Shown one piece after another: positions 33,324 through 40,196 of a stretch of DNA of 64,000 nt (positions within the stretch are counted from its first letter, which is position 1; each line of letters begins with the position of its first letter). The stretch covers positions 186,001 to 250,000 of the forward strand of contig NZ_SNQG01000006.1 in NCBI RefSeq assembly GCF_004378255.1. Reading direction: 5' to 3'. Below the pieces are notes generated by a model, which worked only from the letters and a program-made list of their open reading frames with translations, was not told where the DNA came from and did no database searches. The translations under genes were made by a program, and so were the position numbers. This DNA is from Mucilaginibacter phyllosphaerae (GTDB taxonomy: Bacteria; Bacteroidota; Bacteroidia; Sphingobacteriales; Sphingobacteriaceae).

Positions 33324-33414
33324 TCGCCTGCCCGCCAACGTTAACCTGTTTGTTTTTACATCTGCAAAAGCTTACATTTAAGGACTGTTTTTGCCAATAA
33401 ATAGCCTTTACTAC

Positions 33415-34989
33415 ATGAATAAAAAATGGATAATAGCAGCGTTTATGCTGTTAAGTGTTTGTGTAAACGCACAGCAGAAAACGCCCCGCCAGTTGTTTCC
33501 CGGTTTGTTCGAATCGGTACAATCCTCAGATCTCTTTCCGGATAATAAAATCTTTGTAGACTGTACGCCCAAATACCCGCCGGCCCGGATCATGAAGGCC
33601 TATAACGAGCAATTAGGCAAGGCAGGCTTTGACCTGAAAGAATTTGTGACGGATAATTTCACAGTGCCATCGGGTGTTACACATGCCTTCCAAACCAATG
33701 TAGAGGATGGCATCCGTAAGCATATCGATACCCTGTGGCAGGTATTGCAGCGCAAGCCCGATGAGGCTTCAAAGCTTTCATCACTGGCGGCTTTACCCAA
33801 GCCCTATATTGTACCGGGTGGCCGTTTCCGCGAGGTGTACTACTGGGATAGCTACTTTACCATGCTGGGCCTGCAAGAGAGCAAACAAACCAAAGTTATA
33901 GGTAACATGATTGATAACTTTGCCTACCTGATAGATACCTACGGTTTTATCCCAAACGGTAACCGGGCATATTATTTAACACGTTCTCAGCCGCCATTCT
34001 TTTCGCTGATGGTAAGCCTGCTGGCCAAAAGCGAGGGCAACAAGATCCTGCTTAAATATCAGCCCCAACTGGTTAAAGAATATAACTACTGGATGCTGGG
34101 CGGAACAACCCTGGCAAAAAACCAGGCCATACACCGTGCCGTACGTATGGCCGATGGCACCCTGCTTAACCGATATTGGGACGAAAGCGACGAGCCACGC
34201 GAGGAAAGCTATATTAAAGATGTGGATGCCGCTAAAACCACCAAACAGACCCTGCCTGATTTTTACCATCATATCCGCGCGGCTGCGGCAAGCGGCTGGG
34301 ATTTTAGCAGCCGCTGGTTTAGCGATGCAAGTACATTGAGCACCATAGAAACTGCCGACCTGGCACCGGTAGACCTGAACTGCCTGCTCTACAACCTGGA
34401 GCTGACCATTGCCCGCAGTTACCAGCTTAAAGGCAACAACAAGCTTTATATGGCCTATACCGCCAAAGCCCAAACCCGCAAAAAAGCCATCCTGAAATAC
34501 TTTTGGGACGAAAAAACCGGCTGGTTTCAGGATTATAAATGGGCCACTAACAAACAGGCTAACATACCTACACTTGCGGCAGTTTTCCCGCTGGCGTTTA
34601 AAATTGCCACAGCTGCGCAGGCACAAAAAGTGGCAGATGGTTTAAAAGCTAACTTTTTAAAACCGGGCGGCCTGGTTACCACCTTAAACTTTAGCGGCCA
34701 GCAATGGGATGCGCCAAACGGTTGGGCACCTTTGCAGTATATGGCTATAGACGGCCTGGAAAATTACGGGCATAGCGAACTGGCTAAAGATATTGCTACC
34801 CGTTGGCTCCAATTAAATATTCGCGTATTTAAAAAGACGGGGAAACTGCTGGAAAAATACAATGTGGTTGATACGAGCTTAACCGCAGGCGGTGGCGAAT
34901 ACCCGCTGCAGGATGGCTTTGGCTGGACAAACGGGGTGTTGCTGAAACTGATGAACAGGTATCATTATGAAGAAAAACAGGGCGAGTAA
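33415..34989 (+). CDS. treA: alpha,alpha-trehalase (GH37), exported
   Basis: Hydrolyses trehalose to two glucose molecules, probably in the periplasm. The ATG at 33415 gives MNKKWIIAAFMLLSVCVNAQ, a signal peptide with likely cleavage after VNA; the in-frame TTG at 33391 would bury it. Both GH37 signatures are present: PGGRFREVYYWDSY near 133 and QWDAPNGWAP near 430. The catalytic Asp is in SGWDFSSRW near 298 and the catalytic Glu in GGGEYPLQDGFGWTNG near 500. At 524 residues it is of family size. The Tat-signal beta-propeller gene follows 29 bases later. Confidence 0.95.
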   Translation: MNKKWIIAAFMLLSVCVNAQQKTPRQLFPGLFESVQSSDLFPDNKIFVDCTPKYPPARIMKAYNEQLGKAGFDLKEFVTDNFTVPSGVTHAFQTNVEDGIRKHIDTLWQVLQRKPDEASKLSSLAALPKPYIVPGGRFREVYYWDSYFTMLGLQESKQTKVIGNMIDNFAYLIDTYGFIPNGNRAYYLTRSQPPFFSLMVSLLAKSEGNKILLKYQPQLVKEYNYWMLGGTTLAKNQAIHRAVRMADGTLLNRYWDESDEPREESYIKDVDAAKTTKQTLPDFYHHIRAAAASGWDFSSRWFSDASTLSTIETADLAPVDLNCLLYNLELTIARSYQLKGNNKLYMAYTAKAQTRKKAILKYFWDEKTGWFQDYKWATNKQANIPTLAAVFPLAFKIATAAQAQKVADGLKANFLKPGGLVTTLNFSGQQWDAPNGWAPLQYMAIDGLENYGHSELAKDIATRWLQLNIRVFKKTGKLLEKYNVVDTSLTAGGGEYPLQDGFGWTNGVLLKLMNRYHYEEKQGE

Positions 34990-35018: not shown

Positions 35019-36128
35019 ATGGAAAACTCAAGAAGAAACTTCATCAAAAATACGGCAGTAGCTTCTTTGGCAGTAGCAGCTGCTCCGGCAAAAGGTTTTG
35101 CGATATTGCATAACGATAAACAACCGGATGAACAAACCATTGGCCACAACGGCTATACGTATAAGGTTGATAAAAACTGGGCAAAGATCAGCATCAATAA
35201 CACGCCGCTGGCTAATTGCCACGAAATGGTGCAGGATAGCCAGGGCCGCCTGATCATGCTGGGCGACCATACGCATAACAATGTGTTGGTTTTCGATAAA
35301 TCGGGCAAGTTGCTTGATTATTGGGGAACATCCCTGCCCGGCGGGCACGGCCTGAGCATCAGCAAGGAGGGCGGCGAAGACTTTTTGCTATTGACCGACT
35401 GCGGCTGGGCTTTAGACCGTACCGGCAATACCTACGGCCAATCCGGCCAGGTATTAAAAACCACGGTGGATGGTAAACTGATATTTGCCATTGGCCACCC
35501 GCGCACTATTGGTATCTACAAGGATAACGAGCCCTTTAAACCTACCGAAACGGCTATTGCCCCCAACGGCGATATTTATGTAGCTGATGGTTACGGCTCT
35601 GATTACATCATTCAATACAACAGCAAGGGGCAATACATCCGGCATTTCGGCGGGCATAATAACAGCAATCCCGACCATAACCTGCGCAATGCCCACGGCG
35701 TAACAGTTGATACGCGCGACAAGAACAACCCTACGCTGATCTGCACTTCGCGTGAAGAAAATTGCTTTAAAGTTTTTACGCTGGATGGCAAATTCATTAA
35801 ACGGATAGATATGCCAGGCATGTACGTTTGCAGGGCGGTTATCAATGATAATAATATTTACGCGGGTGTTTGCTGGTCAAAAAATGCCCAGGGTAAACAG
35901 TTTGACGGATCGGGCTTTGTAACTATCTTAGATAAAGACAATAAAGTGATCTCTAACCCCGGCGGCGCTGCACCCAACTATAAGAATGGTGTATTACAGC
36001 AAACGCTGCAAGCGCCAAACGCAACCTTTATGCACGGCCATGATGTATGTATAGATGAAGATAAAAGCATTTACGTTTGCCAATGGAACGCCAACCATAC
36101 CGCACCGATAAAGCTGACAAGGGTGTAG
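35019..36128 (+). CDS. Tat-exported NHL/6-bladed beta-propeller protein
   Basis: A 369-residue protein with a Tat-type signal (SRRNFIKNTAVASLAVAAA, twin Arg at 5-6). The rest is a beta-propeller of the NHL/peptidylglycine monooxygenase-like kind. Repeated short blocks such as DSQGRLIMLGD, KSGKLLDYWG, APNGDIYVADGYGSDYI, SKGQYIRHFG and DEDKSIYVCQWNAN mark the blades. Several Cys and a conserved HGHDVC near the end may bind metal. Export already folded suggests a cofactor or early folding. It follows trehalase by 29 bases, so the two may be co-expressed. The activity is unknown. Confidence 0.8.
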   Translation: MENSRRNFIKNTAVASLAVAAAPAKGFAILHNDKQPDEQTIGHNGYTYKVDKNWAKISINNTPLANCHEMVQDSQGRLIMLGDHTHNNVLVFDKSGKLLDYWGTSLPGGHGLSISKEGGEDFLLLTDCGWALDRTGNTYGQSGQVLKTTVDGKLIFAIGHPRTIGIYKDNEPFKPTETAIAPNGDIYVADGYGSDYIIQYNSKGQYIRHFGGHNNSNPDHNLRNAHGVTVDTRDKNNPTLICTSREENCFKVFTLDGKFIKRIDMPGMYVCRAVINDNNIYAGVCWSKNAQGKQFDGSGFVTILDKDNKVISNPGGAAPNYKNGVLQQTLQAPNATFMHGHDVCIDEDKSIYVCQWNANHTAPIKLTRV

Positions 36129-36146
36129 GTGTTCTCAATTCGTCCT

Positions 36147-36279
36147 GGTCTAAGTTTTTAACTTAGACCTAAAATGTGTTAAGCTTTCAGCTTAACTAAA
36201 ATAAGATTGTAAAGTGTAGCGCATGGTTTCGCAAGCTGGAAGCTTGCTGTGTTTTGGGTATAAGTTGGAAACTTATACC
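36147..36279. repeat. mirrored pair of double hairpins (BIME-like element)
   Basis: Four perfect stem-loops with 3-base loops lie at 36147-36169, 36178-36196, 36231-36247 and 36257-36279. They form two two-hairpin units that are inverted copies of each other around a 34-base centre. Each unit pairs an AAGCT/AGCTT stem with a GGT..AAGTT/AACTT..ACC stem 8-9 bases away. Arm sequences differ between copies, but pairing is kept. It lies in a convergent intergenic gap, where it may also act as a terminator. Confidence 0.9.
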
Positions 36280-36355
36280 AGTGCCGAATTTAAGTTATAC
36301 GCTTTGTTAACCCCTCCCTGCACCCTCCCAGAGGAGGAATTGCACATTGACAATC

Positions 36356-37699
36356 TTACCTCACCGGCTTAGGGAATACCGGCAAACTTTCGTGCCCATC
36401 TGCATCTACAGCCTGCACGGCAAAAAGGTAATTATCTTTAGAGTAGCCGATGTTGGCGTTGGTACCGGTTACATAAAATTTCTTTTCCCAATAGGGGCTA
36501 ATGGTTTCGCGCATTAAAACGTAGTAACCTGCGGGCGATTTGCCTTTTGGTGCATCCCACTTTAGCTGCGTTTTATTGGTGAGGCCGCTGGTTACAATAC
36601 CCACATTTAGCGGCGACGCAGGCGCCAGGGCCAGGTTTGCCAGTACAGACAGGTTCATCCGGGCCACTTTTTGGGTATAATCGTAATCGGCAAAATCAGG
36701 CAGGTCGCCGTAATCCACACCCTTCTCTTTACGGATATCCTGGTGCTGGCGGTTAAAATCCTCATTCATTTCGGTGATACGTATCGCGGCATAACCTTGC
36801 TGAGAAAAGGGTGTGTGGTCGCCACCACGAAGATAGCGGTCGCGGCGATAGATCAGCTTTACGTCCAATTGCTCTACATAGCGCTCGGCAATTTCTTTAG
36901 TGTAGCGGGCTAATTCACGGGCCGGGCTATCATTTTCACCGCCTATTGAATTTCGGGTGGCTGCCTGCTTTTGTGTTTCGGCAGCGGGCACCCCTTCGCT
37001 AAATACACGCACGCTGCGATTATCTTTAAGGCCCGTTTCCATACCAACCGTATTACCTACAATATCGTTATTAAGCATCGCATCAACCTGCCAGCCTTCG
37101 GCTTTAGCGCGTTTAGCTACGTTTGTTGATCCGTACAGGCCTTGCTCCTCGCCTACCACTGCCATAAAAATAATAGTAGCCGGGAATGAATGTTTTGCCA
37201 TCACCCTGGCCAGTTCCATAGATACAGCCGTGCCCGAAGCATCGTCCACCGCGCCCGGCGCAAACGATTTTACGTTCATTACATCCGTCACCCTGGAATC
37301 ATAATGGCCGGATACGATATAGATCCGCTTATCTGCAGTATCTGTACCTTTCAGTATCGCCAGCACATTCTTCATAGGTGTAGGCTTGTCTATCCGGTCG
37401 CCCTGGGGTTGTGTAAATTCATCAAATGATACCTGCATACGGCCGTTTGATGCAGCGGCATATCTTTCATACTCAGCTTTTATCCAATTACGGGCAGCAC
37501 CTACGCCTTCGGTTTTACTGATGGTATCGCTTAAGGTATGCCTGGTTTTAAAGCTTACCAGTTTGCGCACAATGGTTTCTATGTTTTTGGCAGATACCTC
37601 ATCAATCATTTGTTTAATACCGGCATCTTGCTTAACAGTGGTTTGAGCAGATGCAGCTACAGTTATGAGGGAGATGATAAGCAGGCAGATACGTTTCAT
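36356..37699 (-). CDS. M28 family metallopeptidase, exported
   Basis: A 447-residue secreted aminopeptidase-like enzyme with signal peptide MKRICLLIISLITVAASAQ. The M28 di-zinc ligands are visible: His in SGHYDSR near 137, Asp in PGAVDDASGTA near 160, the catalytic Glu and a ligand in VGEEQGLYGS near 190. Asp in NNDIVGN near 217 and a late His in GGDHTPFSQQG near 300 complete the set. A fibronectin type III-like domain fills the last 90 residues (LKWDAPKGKSPAGYYVLMRE). Dipeptide or peptide substrates are not predictable. A TIGR03643-type gene lies 19 bases upstream on the same strand. Confidence 0.92.
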   Translation of the reverse strand: MKRICLLIISLITVAASAQTTVKQDAGIKQMIDEVSAKNIETIVRKLVSFKTRHTLSDTISKTEGVGAARNWIKAEYERYAAASNGRMQVSFDEFTQPQGDRIDKPTPMKNVLAILKGTDTADKRIYIVSGHYDSRVTDVMNVKSFAPGAVDDASGTAVSMELARVMAKHSFPATIIFMAVVGEEQGLYGSTNVAKRAKAEGWQVDAMLNNDIVGNTVGMETGLKDNRSVRVFSEGVPAAETQKQAATRNSIGGENDSPARELARYTKEIAERYVEQLDVKLIYRRDRYLRGGDHTPFSQQGYAAIRITEMNEDFNRQHQDIRKEKGVDYGDLPDFADYDYTQKVARMNLSVLANLALAPASPLNVGIVTSGLTNKTQLKWDAPKGKSPAGYYVLMRETISPYWEKKFYVTGTNANIGYSKDNYLFAVQAVDADGHESLPVFPKPVR

Positions 37700-38156: not shown

Positions 38157-40196
38157 TTATTTAACTGTATAGGTTTCTTTCTTTACTCCTACTCCGGTTA
38201 TTTTTAAAGATTTCCAGTTGGCGGGTAATTTACTTTTGATCTGTACGATACCGGCTGGCGTAATATCCAAGCCACCAAAGCCCATTAACATCGCCTGGAT
38301 GATACCACCGGCACCTGTAGCAAAATAAGGGTTGGTACCACCCTTAGTTTCGGCAATTACCCGGAACGGCGGGTTAAGGTTAGGCTCGTATGCTTCCTTA
38401 AACCATTTGTAGGCTTTTTGGCCATCGCCTAAACGCGCGTAAAGCAATGCAAAAACGCCTTGTGTCATGGCAGGGGTACCTTCATTGGGTACACGGGTTT
38501 CATAATACTCCAGGTCTTTTTTGATCTGGGCGGGGTCGGTTATGGTTTTAAGCGGATAGGCTAACAGGTTAACATCCGCTTGTTTAATACCTTCGCCCTT
38601 GTATTGGGCATGCTCCTGTGTTACGCCATTGGCCATCTTCAGGATCGGGATATTATTAGCTACGTTCACCCAATCGGTATCTGCCTGCATGCCCAATATT
38701 TTGGCGGCCGCGGTAGCGTTCATCAGGTTGGCCTGTGCGGCAGCGTTGGTGAATGCATTATTGTCGATATTCTCGGCCCATTCATCAGCAGCAACTACAT
38801 TTTTAATATCATAGTGCCCGGGGCCGTTACGCTCTACCCGGCTTGCCCAAAAATCGGCGGTGGCAGATAGCAGCGGCCAGCCCTTTTCGCGCAGCCATTG
38901 TGTATCCTGTGTTACGCAATAATAAGCCCAGGCAGCGTTGGCAACATCGGCGCTGATATGGTGTTCAAACGGGCCGCTTAAGGCCCAAACCGGGGTTTCT
39001 TCTACCCCGCTATCAGCGCTCTCCCAAGGGAACATGGCGCCTTTATACCCATGCGAGAAGGCATTTTTACGTGCATTCTCCAAACGTTCAAAACGGTATT
39101 CTACCATAGATTTGGCTATCTCCGGGTGCATCACCAGCATAGCCGGGAACATCCACAGGTCCGTATCCCAAAATACATGGCCGTTGTAACCCAGGCCCGA
39201 TAAACCCATTGGCGATGGCGACAAAGCAGTACCCGCACGCGAGAAAGAATATAAATGATACAACATACTATGCACATCCTGCTGCGCCTGTGCATCACCT
39301 TCTATATGGATATCGCTTTTCCAAAGTTCATTCCAGGCCTTATTGTGAAACTGGATGAGCCTGTCTTTACCCTCCAGCTTGGCGAAGATGGTTAAGCGCT
39401 CGGCCTCGTTCAGCGGGTCTGCATGGTGGGCTGAGGTTATAGACGAGCCCGTTACACCATATTTATAGGTTTGCCCGGCAGCCATAACACGGCTAAACTT
39501 CATCAGGTGCATGTTATTATCCCACATTTCATGAATAACGCGCGGTTCTTTGCCATGCTCCTCGTTAAACAAAAACGATGTAGAGGCGCATAACTGCAGC
39601 TTACCCGTAGGTGATTTTGCAGTGGACGTTAACAGGCTGATGGTTACATGCGGCCTGTCTATCTCGTTATAGTAATTTTGTACTTCTTTAAGTGCATCCG
39701 GCGCTTCCATTACGCTGGCTGCGGTGATGTTAATGGCTTTTTTGGCGGTGATAGCCACGTCCATCAACACGGTAAAAGGCAGCTGGCGCAACGAGTAATA
39801 AGTGTATTTAATGGTTGCTTTATCGCCATAATCAAAGGTAGTGGTCATGGCGGCGTGCTGCATATCCAGCTCTTGCTTAAAATTGCTCACCATTTTGGCG
39901 TCGAGGCGTTTACCATCCACTTCCAGGTACATATTCAGCAGGTTAAAGCTGTTGAGGAAATTGCTTACCCGGCCGCGGCCGTAAAGGTCATAAGCGCCGG
40001 CCAATACTACATTTTTCACCTTAAAAGGCTCGGGCGAGGATACGATACCTATCATGCCATTGGCCACTGTGATGCCGTAGTAATTATTAGGGTCAATTTT
40101 ATCTGCCCTGATGATCCACGGACTAATATTTTGTGCCGATACATGCGCGGCAGCAAATAAAATTGCTAATACAAACAGGGTAGCTGCTCTTCTCAT
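38157..40196 (-). CDS. glycoside hydrolase family 65 protein, exported
   Basis: A 679-residue protein with signal peptide MRRAATLFVLAILFAAAHVSAQ. The GH65 layout is an N-terminal beta-sandwich (about 30-290), an (alpha/alpha)6 barrel (about 320-620) and a short C-terminal beta region. FWDTDLWMFP near 345 and ADEWAENIDNNAFTNAA near 468, with the catalytic-acid Glu, are barrel motifs. IKQADVNLLAYP near 535 and NPYFATGAGGIIQAML near 640 follow. Secretion argues for a hydrolase (trehalose, kojibiose or similar alpha-glucosides) rather than a cytosolic phosphorylase. The haloperoxidase-type gene is 10 bases upstream on the same strand. Confidence 0.88.
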   Translation of the reverse strand: MRRAATLFVLAILFAAAHVSAQNISPWIIRADKIDPNNYYGITVANGMIGIVSSPEPFKVKNVVLAGAYDLYGRGRVSNFLNSFNLLNMYLEVDGKRLDAKMVSNFKQELDMQHAAMTTTFDYGDKATIKYTYYSLRQLPFTVLMDVAITAKKAINITAASVMEAPDALKEVQNYYNEIDRPHVTISLLTSTAKSPTGKLQLCASTSFLFNEEHGKEPRVIHEMWDNNMHLMKFSRVMAAGQTYKYGVTGSSITSAHHADPLNEAERLTIFAKLEGKDRLIQFHNKAWNELWKSDIHIEGDAQAQQDVHSMLYHLYSFSRAGTALSPSPMGLSGLGYNGHVFWDTDLWMFPAMLVMHPEIAKSMVEYRFERLENARKNAFSHGYKGAMFPWESADSGVEETPVWALSGPFEHHISADVANAAWAYYCVTQDTQWLREKGWPLLSATADFWASRVERNGPGHYDIKNVVAADEWAENIDNNAFTNAAAQANLMNATAAAKILGMQADTDWVNVANNIPILKMANGVTQEHAQYKGEGIKQADVNLLAYPLKTITDPAQIKKDLEYYETRVPNEGTPAMTQGVFALLYARLGDGQKAYKWFKEAYEPNLNPPFRVIAETKGGTNPYFATGAGGIIQAMLMGFGGLDITPAGIVQIKSKLPANWKSLKITGVGVKKETYTVK

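Follow-up and report, generated by a model that had tools for sequence, protein, structure and literature searches.

What kind of element is formed by the two mirrored double hairpins that lie between two genes of Mucilaginibacter phyllosphaerae, and by what means would it have come to lie there? The hairpins are located in the middle of the window, the 64,000-nucleotide stretch of DNA analysed here, and the original prediction, made from the letters of this stretch, described stem changes between the two copies that always occur in pairs, and took them to point to selection for structure or to a palindromic unit of the REP/BIME type. Direct reading, arm alignment and the single-stranded DNA (ssDNA) fold all agree with the described anatomy (Table 1). 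Each unit consists of a CT foot, a first hairpin (H1), a spacer beginning with YAAAA (8 nt in the left unit, 9 nt in the right one) and a second hairpin (H2), and the two arms of 49 nt each are 76% complementary. Every stem difference between the left and right units is indeed paired, namely C-G/A-T in H1 and T-A/G-C as well as T-A/C-G in H2. When folded as ssDNA, the region forms exactly the four hairpins with -29.1 kcal/mol, a value equalled by none of 200 dinucleotide shuffles (-12.4 +/- 2.5; z = -6.8).

Table 1 Features of the double-hairpin element and of its surroundings (positions in the window)
Feature	Position	Strand	Structure and sequence	Basis or remark
Trehalase-like gene	33391-34989			named by eye
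NHL-repeat protein gene	35019-36128	+		convergent on element
Left double-hairpin unit, TT-type end	36145-36196	+	CT foot, H1, spacer TAAAATGT, H2	covariance model R1, 77.4 bits; direct reading
H1 of left unit	36147-36169	+	10 pairs, 3-nt loop; stem arms GGTCTAAGTT/AACTTAGACC	
H2 of left unit	36178-36196	+	8 pairs, 3-nt loop; stem arms GTTAAGCT/AGCTTAAC	
Centre between units	36197-36230	.	34 nt	
Right double-hairpin unit, GC-type end	36231-36281	-	inverse of left unit	covariance model R1, 71.3 bits
H2 of right unit	36231-36247	-	7 pairs, 3-nt loop; GCAAGCT/AGCTTGC	
H1 of right unit	36257-36279	-	10 pairs, 3-nt loop; GGTATAAGTT/AACTTATACC	
M28-family peptidase gene	36356-37699	-		convergent on element
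GH65-like gene	38157-40196			named by eye

The unit is a member of a family. A search of the genome to which the window belongs (4.42 Mb, 24 contigs) returned further copies, the best of which (E = 6e-29) is a second complete dimer. CTGGT is invariant in 12 units collected by hand from this genome, and AAAA after H1 is common to all of them; the covariance model R1, which was built on these 12 units, detects 33 units at E<0.01 and still 21 at E<=1e-5. The element is one of about 20-30 scattered copies in this genome. Since 27 of 30 inspected units overlap no open reading frame of at least 120 amino acids, the family is dispersed and mostly intergenic. A sample of 101 genomes of the genus contains 55 with at least one unit. 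Among 90 matches at other loci, 80 of them distinct and aligned with a fit to the structure, 96% of the cells pair and 13 of the 17 pairs are changed on both sides; none of 500 shuffles reaches the real value, and slid controls are 15-56% paired. The 12 units of the window's own genome give a similar picture by themselves. Copy number and conservation thus exclude a lone copy with unconserved pairing. The original prediction had taken kept pairing as a pointer to selection for structure; the pairing is kept in other species as well, but compensatory changes alone do not prove such selection, because template-switch repair of quasi-palindromes can yield an identical pattern. In one other genome (G013), one H2 has grown into a far longer palindrome (TAAAATCATGGAAGCATTCTGCTTCCGTGATTTTA; locus L202), as expected from this type of repair.

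The search for a REP-associated tyrosine transposase (RAYT), which the original prediction had proposed together with a genome-wide copy count and a covariance search across Mucilaginibacter, identified a single gene above the cut-off of the Pfam family Y1_Tnp in the window's own genome. It is located on contig C14 beside aroC, between one unit (a) on one side and two units (b and c) on the other side. Its product comprises 183 residues apart from one premature TGA, at a codon specifying Trp in the closest relatives, and the relatives with 77-84% identity are intact. The protein scores 94.6 bits with the NCBIfam model REP_Tyr_transpos (NF047646; cut-off 80), and the best PDB match both of a profile of 38 RAYT relatives and of the predicted fold of the intact RAYT of a related genome (G041; pLDDT 91.9, E = 3e-8) is 4ER8, the TnpA_REP protein of E. 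coli. The RAYT consensus of 183 amino acids contains the motifs SNHVH, FWQQ and DYIHNNP, which read SHIH and YLHHNP in the own copy; by motif comparison (NH[LIV]H, WQ, YIH[QN]NP, about 179 amino acids) the protein appears to fit subclass 2.6 of TnpA_REP. As the only cognate RAYT found here carries a nonsense codon and mobility would be supplied by the RAYT, the unit is not "self-mobilising", as the original prediction had considered, even though its assignment to the REP/BIME type stands. The cognate RAYT looks dead, and current activity in this genome is unlikely unless another RAYT works in trans; given the premature stop, the copies probably survive as relics that are tolerated for their position between genes. 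The same genome contains two more RAYT relatives whose reading frames are broken or carry stops (C14:216315-216787 and C21:70058-70546), and its RAYT genes seem to be mostly broken. Beyond the window, in the region of C21:281598, there is a second, intact RAYT-like gene (180 amino acids, weak Y1_Tnp match) surrounded by numerous copies of another palindrome (AGACGCGAAGTATCGCGTCT) that alternate in orientation; gene and palindromes probably represent a separate RAYT/REP family.

RAYT genes bracketed by units are also found in many relatives. Flanks of about 260 bp on either side of the gene were compared at 51 RAYT loci of related genomes, and at 44 of these loci the two flanks share an inverted repeat at E<1e-5, which was detected neither in flanks 700 bp further out (0 of 48) nor in shuffled flanks (0 of 255). 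When the upstream flank of one locus was combined with the downstream flank of a different one, the success depended on the identity of the RAYTs, with 88% at 70% identity or more, 40% at 60-70%, 4% at 50-60% and none below, although genomes and loci are kin and the association statistics therefore overstate independence. Since cross-locus matches drop as RAYT identity drops, the sequences of units and RAYTs co-diverge; CTGGTCTAAG and GCTGCCGCGAG are examples of H1 variants from different RAYT clades. At least two hairpins were present in 71 of 88 folded arms at RAYT loci. In a set of 75 RAYT loci whose genomes are named, almost all of them Bacteroidota, flank repeats were found at E<1e-4 in 61 cases (far flanks: 0 of 71), with a second hairpin in only about half; distant RAYTs often have one clear hairpin per flank, and the double hairpin is not claimed as a phylum-wide trait. 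The classical GT[AG]G foot precedes the stem in 2 of 176 hairpins and is thus absent, so that the units are no canonical GTAG REPs. The trinucleotide [GA]CT stands before the stem in 93 of these 176 hairpins versus 17 on the opposite side, a count that derives from kin sequences and is a lower estimate, as automatic hairpin picking at times took H2; its Fisher P value includes no correction for this kinship. CT is the usual cleavage dinucleotide of the TnpA_REP enzymes studied (PMC8266576), and the [GA]CT foot may be linked to it. A RAYT with 49% identity is also present in a record labelled as a gammaproteobacterium (Aggregatibacter segnis HK_296), reflecting either horizontal transfer or contamination.

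The number of units follows the RAYT in part. Each of the eight genomes whose RAYT reaches 77% identity or more contains 14-30 units (median 19), and the median is 1 in genomes with a more distant RAYT and 0 in genomes without RAYT. Many units without a close RAYT are found in G116 (13), G108 (20) and G083 (43). The latter number is the highest seen; the best RAYT of G083 (57% identity) is flanked by a different unit type, and its units apparently form an orphan population.

Neighbouring units are arranged head-to-head in 35 of 38 pairs, as counted by hand from the covariance-model matches, and all 14 non-redundant dimers recovered by pattern have two non-identical ends: in ten of them, an AAGCAT...GCTT core is paired with an AAGCTT...GCTT core, and in the other four the outer H2 stem is GC at one end and TT at the other. 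In the cognate clade, loci with an intact RAYT have the GC-type end upstream of the gene and the TT-type end downstream, the same pair of ends as in the window dimer. The window centre, read from the right unit, opens with GAAACCA, a motif that several intact RAYT loci also have next to their upstream unit; apart from this motif, it is unlike other copies. The centres of nine dimers compared in G013 share no sequence, so the ends of the dimers are conserved and the middle is not. On the evidence of the same nine dimers, the idea that dimers as a rule move with their centre unchanged was rejected, and with centres so poorly conserved the data do not establish that a dimer moves as a single fixed piece. 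A reading of the centres (about 35 nt, unique) as CRISPR-like spacers was set aside, the units being inverted dimers without arrays.

Other functions or origins have to be weighed against a RAYT-linked element. A bidirectional transcription terminator or a stabiliser of mRNA 3' ends, kept for its RNA structure, would suit a site between two convergent genes, and several other copies are likewise situated between convergent genes; moreover, the region folds strongly as RNA (z = -6.7), one long stem being preferred because the left and right units are complementary to each other. The only terminator-like match, however, is weak, has a poor T tract and is not above chance (0.9 expected in shuffles), units of the same kind bracket RAYT genes and occur at non-convergent sites, and orthologous gene pairs in relatives do without the unit. 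We therefore regard a primary role of this type as improbable; termination could be a secondary effect of the element. That the hairpins are chance palindromes in A+T-rich intergenic DNA has scarcely any probability left in view of the genome-wide copies (best E = 6e-29), the conservation of the structure in other species and the RAYT association, even if the window does contain other hairpins with stems of at least nine pairs. A search of Rfam gave sub-threshold matches only, with plant miRNA families on top because the stems are perfect.

A further rival to the RAYT-linked reading is the view of the element as a remnant of an IS200/IS605-type insertion sequence, or as its MITE, without relation to RAYTs. 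With this family (IS608, ISDra2) and its MITEs it has in common a gene between two non-identical hairpin-bearing ends and the HUH/Y1 superfamily, and the predicted fold of the G041 protein finds matches among IS200-family structures as well. The protein encoded on C14, however, stays below the cut-off of the NCBIfam IS200/IS605 model (NF033573; 27.1 of 55 bits) and passes that of the RAYT model, the best structural match is a TnpA_REP, the bracketing ends are inverted copies of one unit, and the RAYT genes are few per genome and mutually divergent. An origin from IS200/IS605 is accordingly very improbable.

The element is, with high probability, a REPIN/BIME-like non-autonomous mobile element of the Bacteroidota RAYT branch (TnpA_REP subclass 2.6), and the window dimer is most likely a transposase-less (MITE-like) end pair of a units-RAYT-units element that was once copied by a RAYT. 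By analogy with TnpA_REP and IS200/IS605 enzymes (PMC3116915; PMC8266576), the RAYT would bind the unit hairpins in ssDNA, probably reading H1 most specifically, its catalytic tyrosine would cut near the [G/A]CT foot, and the cut piece would be joined to another single-stranded site.

Both REPINs and subclass 2.6 RAYTs were known before. Like the REPINs (Bertels and Rainey 2011, PMC3116915) and BIMEs of enterobacteria and pseudomonads, the units described here are inverted, extragenic, dispersed and RAYT-linked doublets with ends that are better conserved than the spacer; unlike these, they have two hairpins per arm instead of one, no GTAG tetranucleotide, copies in tens instead of hundreds, two ends that differ in H2 and, in the genome examined (G013), centres that share no sequence. 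In the literature searched on such repeats in Bacteroidota, only the study of Quentin et al. (2018, PMC6006769) was found to be directly relevant; it lists the subclass 2.6 TnpA_REP REPtrons of Bacteroidetes as RAYT group 5, and its main text mentions for them only "atypical" repeats with weaker structures, found by manual inspection. As far as described in that main text, the subclass 2.6 REPtrons resemble the present system in a RAYT of about 180 amino acids with NH[LIV]H, WQ and YIH[QN]NP-like motifs and in a gene flanked by structures without GT[AG]G, copies of which occur elsewhere in the genome. They differ from it in that the units described here have two strong hairpins, an H1 foot, a YAAAA spacer, an inverted asymmetric arrangement and a measured co-divergence with the RAYT; this double-hairpin, asymmetric and GTAG-less form with measured co-divergence was not found described in the literature searched, as represented for subclass 2.6 by the main text cited. 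Subclass 2.6 RAYTs are common in Bacteroidota, and their repeats were previously noted only as "atypical". The defined anatomy (foot, H1, YAAAA spacer, H2, asymmetric inverted ends) together with the co-divergence makes the enzyme substrate directly testable, and a covariance model is now available for the annotation of such units.

The history of individual sites can be followed among relatives, in which units are present or absent at orthologous positions. G059 and G080 have the gene order M28, EEP-family gene, NHL and no unit; at the window site the EEP gene is gone and the dimer is located at the M28/NHL junction; G116 lacks both EEP and NHL and has two units next to the trehalase gene; and G041 contains a complete units-RAYT-units element at the syntenic junction between the GH65-like and the trehalase-like gene, in the same gene neighbourhood. 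On the aroC side, an alkylation-repair-like gene (named by eye) is found without unit in G080 and with one unit in G059, and the window's genome has the RAYT and three units there and no such gene. G116 also has the copy at C21:157333, which G059, G080 and G072 lack. Site occupancy thus changes among relatives; four sites are too few for the claim that units cause rearrangements. The RAYT loci vary between species, yet one beside an atpG-like gene (named by eye) is common to several species, so that both movement and vertical stability appear to occur. With a complete element in G041, an end pair in the window and a bare junction elsewhere, the series of syntenic sites is relevant to two questions: whether REPINs originate as derivatives lacking the transposase, and whether RAYTs outside Proteobacteria have been domesticated or continue to move. 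Tentatively, and with the odds rather against it, one may combine these points to the effect that the Bacteroidota RAYT is still a two-ended mobile element, that units-RAYT-units moves between loci, that dimers lacking the RAYT are genuine MITEs whose left and right double-hairpin ends differ, and that neighbouring genes are lost or rearranged when the element inserts or recombines. The changes that would come under this reading are the loss of EEP at the window site and of EEP and NHL in G116, that of the alkylation-repair-like gene by aroC, and an inversion that brought together the flanks of another copy.

Several individual loci deserve mention. The flanks of a further dimer of the own genome (C10:715302-715411) lie 10-11 kb apart and in opposite orientation in G116 and G080, which suggests an inversion breakpoint at this element. 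By aroC in G116, a 155-amino-acid open reading frame (968-1435 of locus L231) takes the place of the relatives' alkylation-repair-like gene and has degraded H1-like hairpins on both sides, as though it had been carried or swapped between units. At two other sites of the own genome (C23:26948 and C14:243338), a unit is located at the junction of apparently truncated genes, which by eye are dGTPase-like on the left on C23 and RHS-like on the right on both contigs, the units lying at breakpoints or in pseudogenes.
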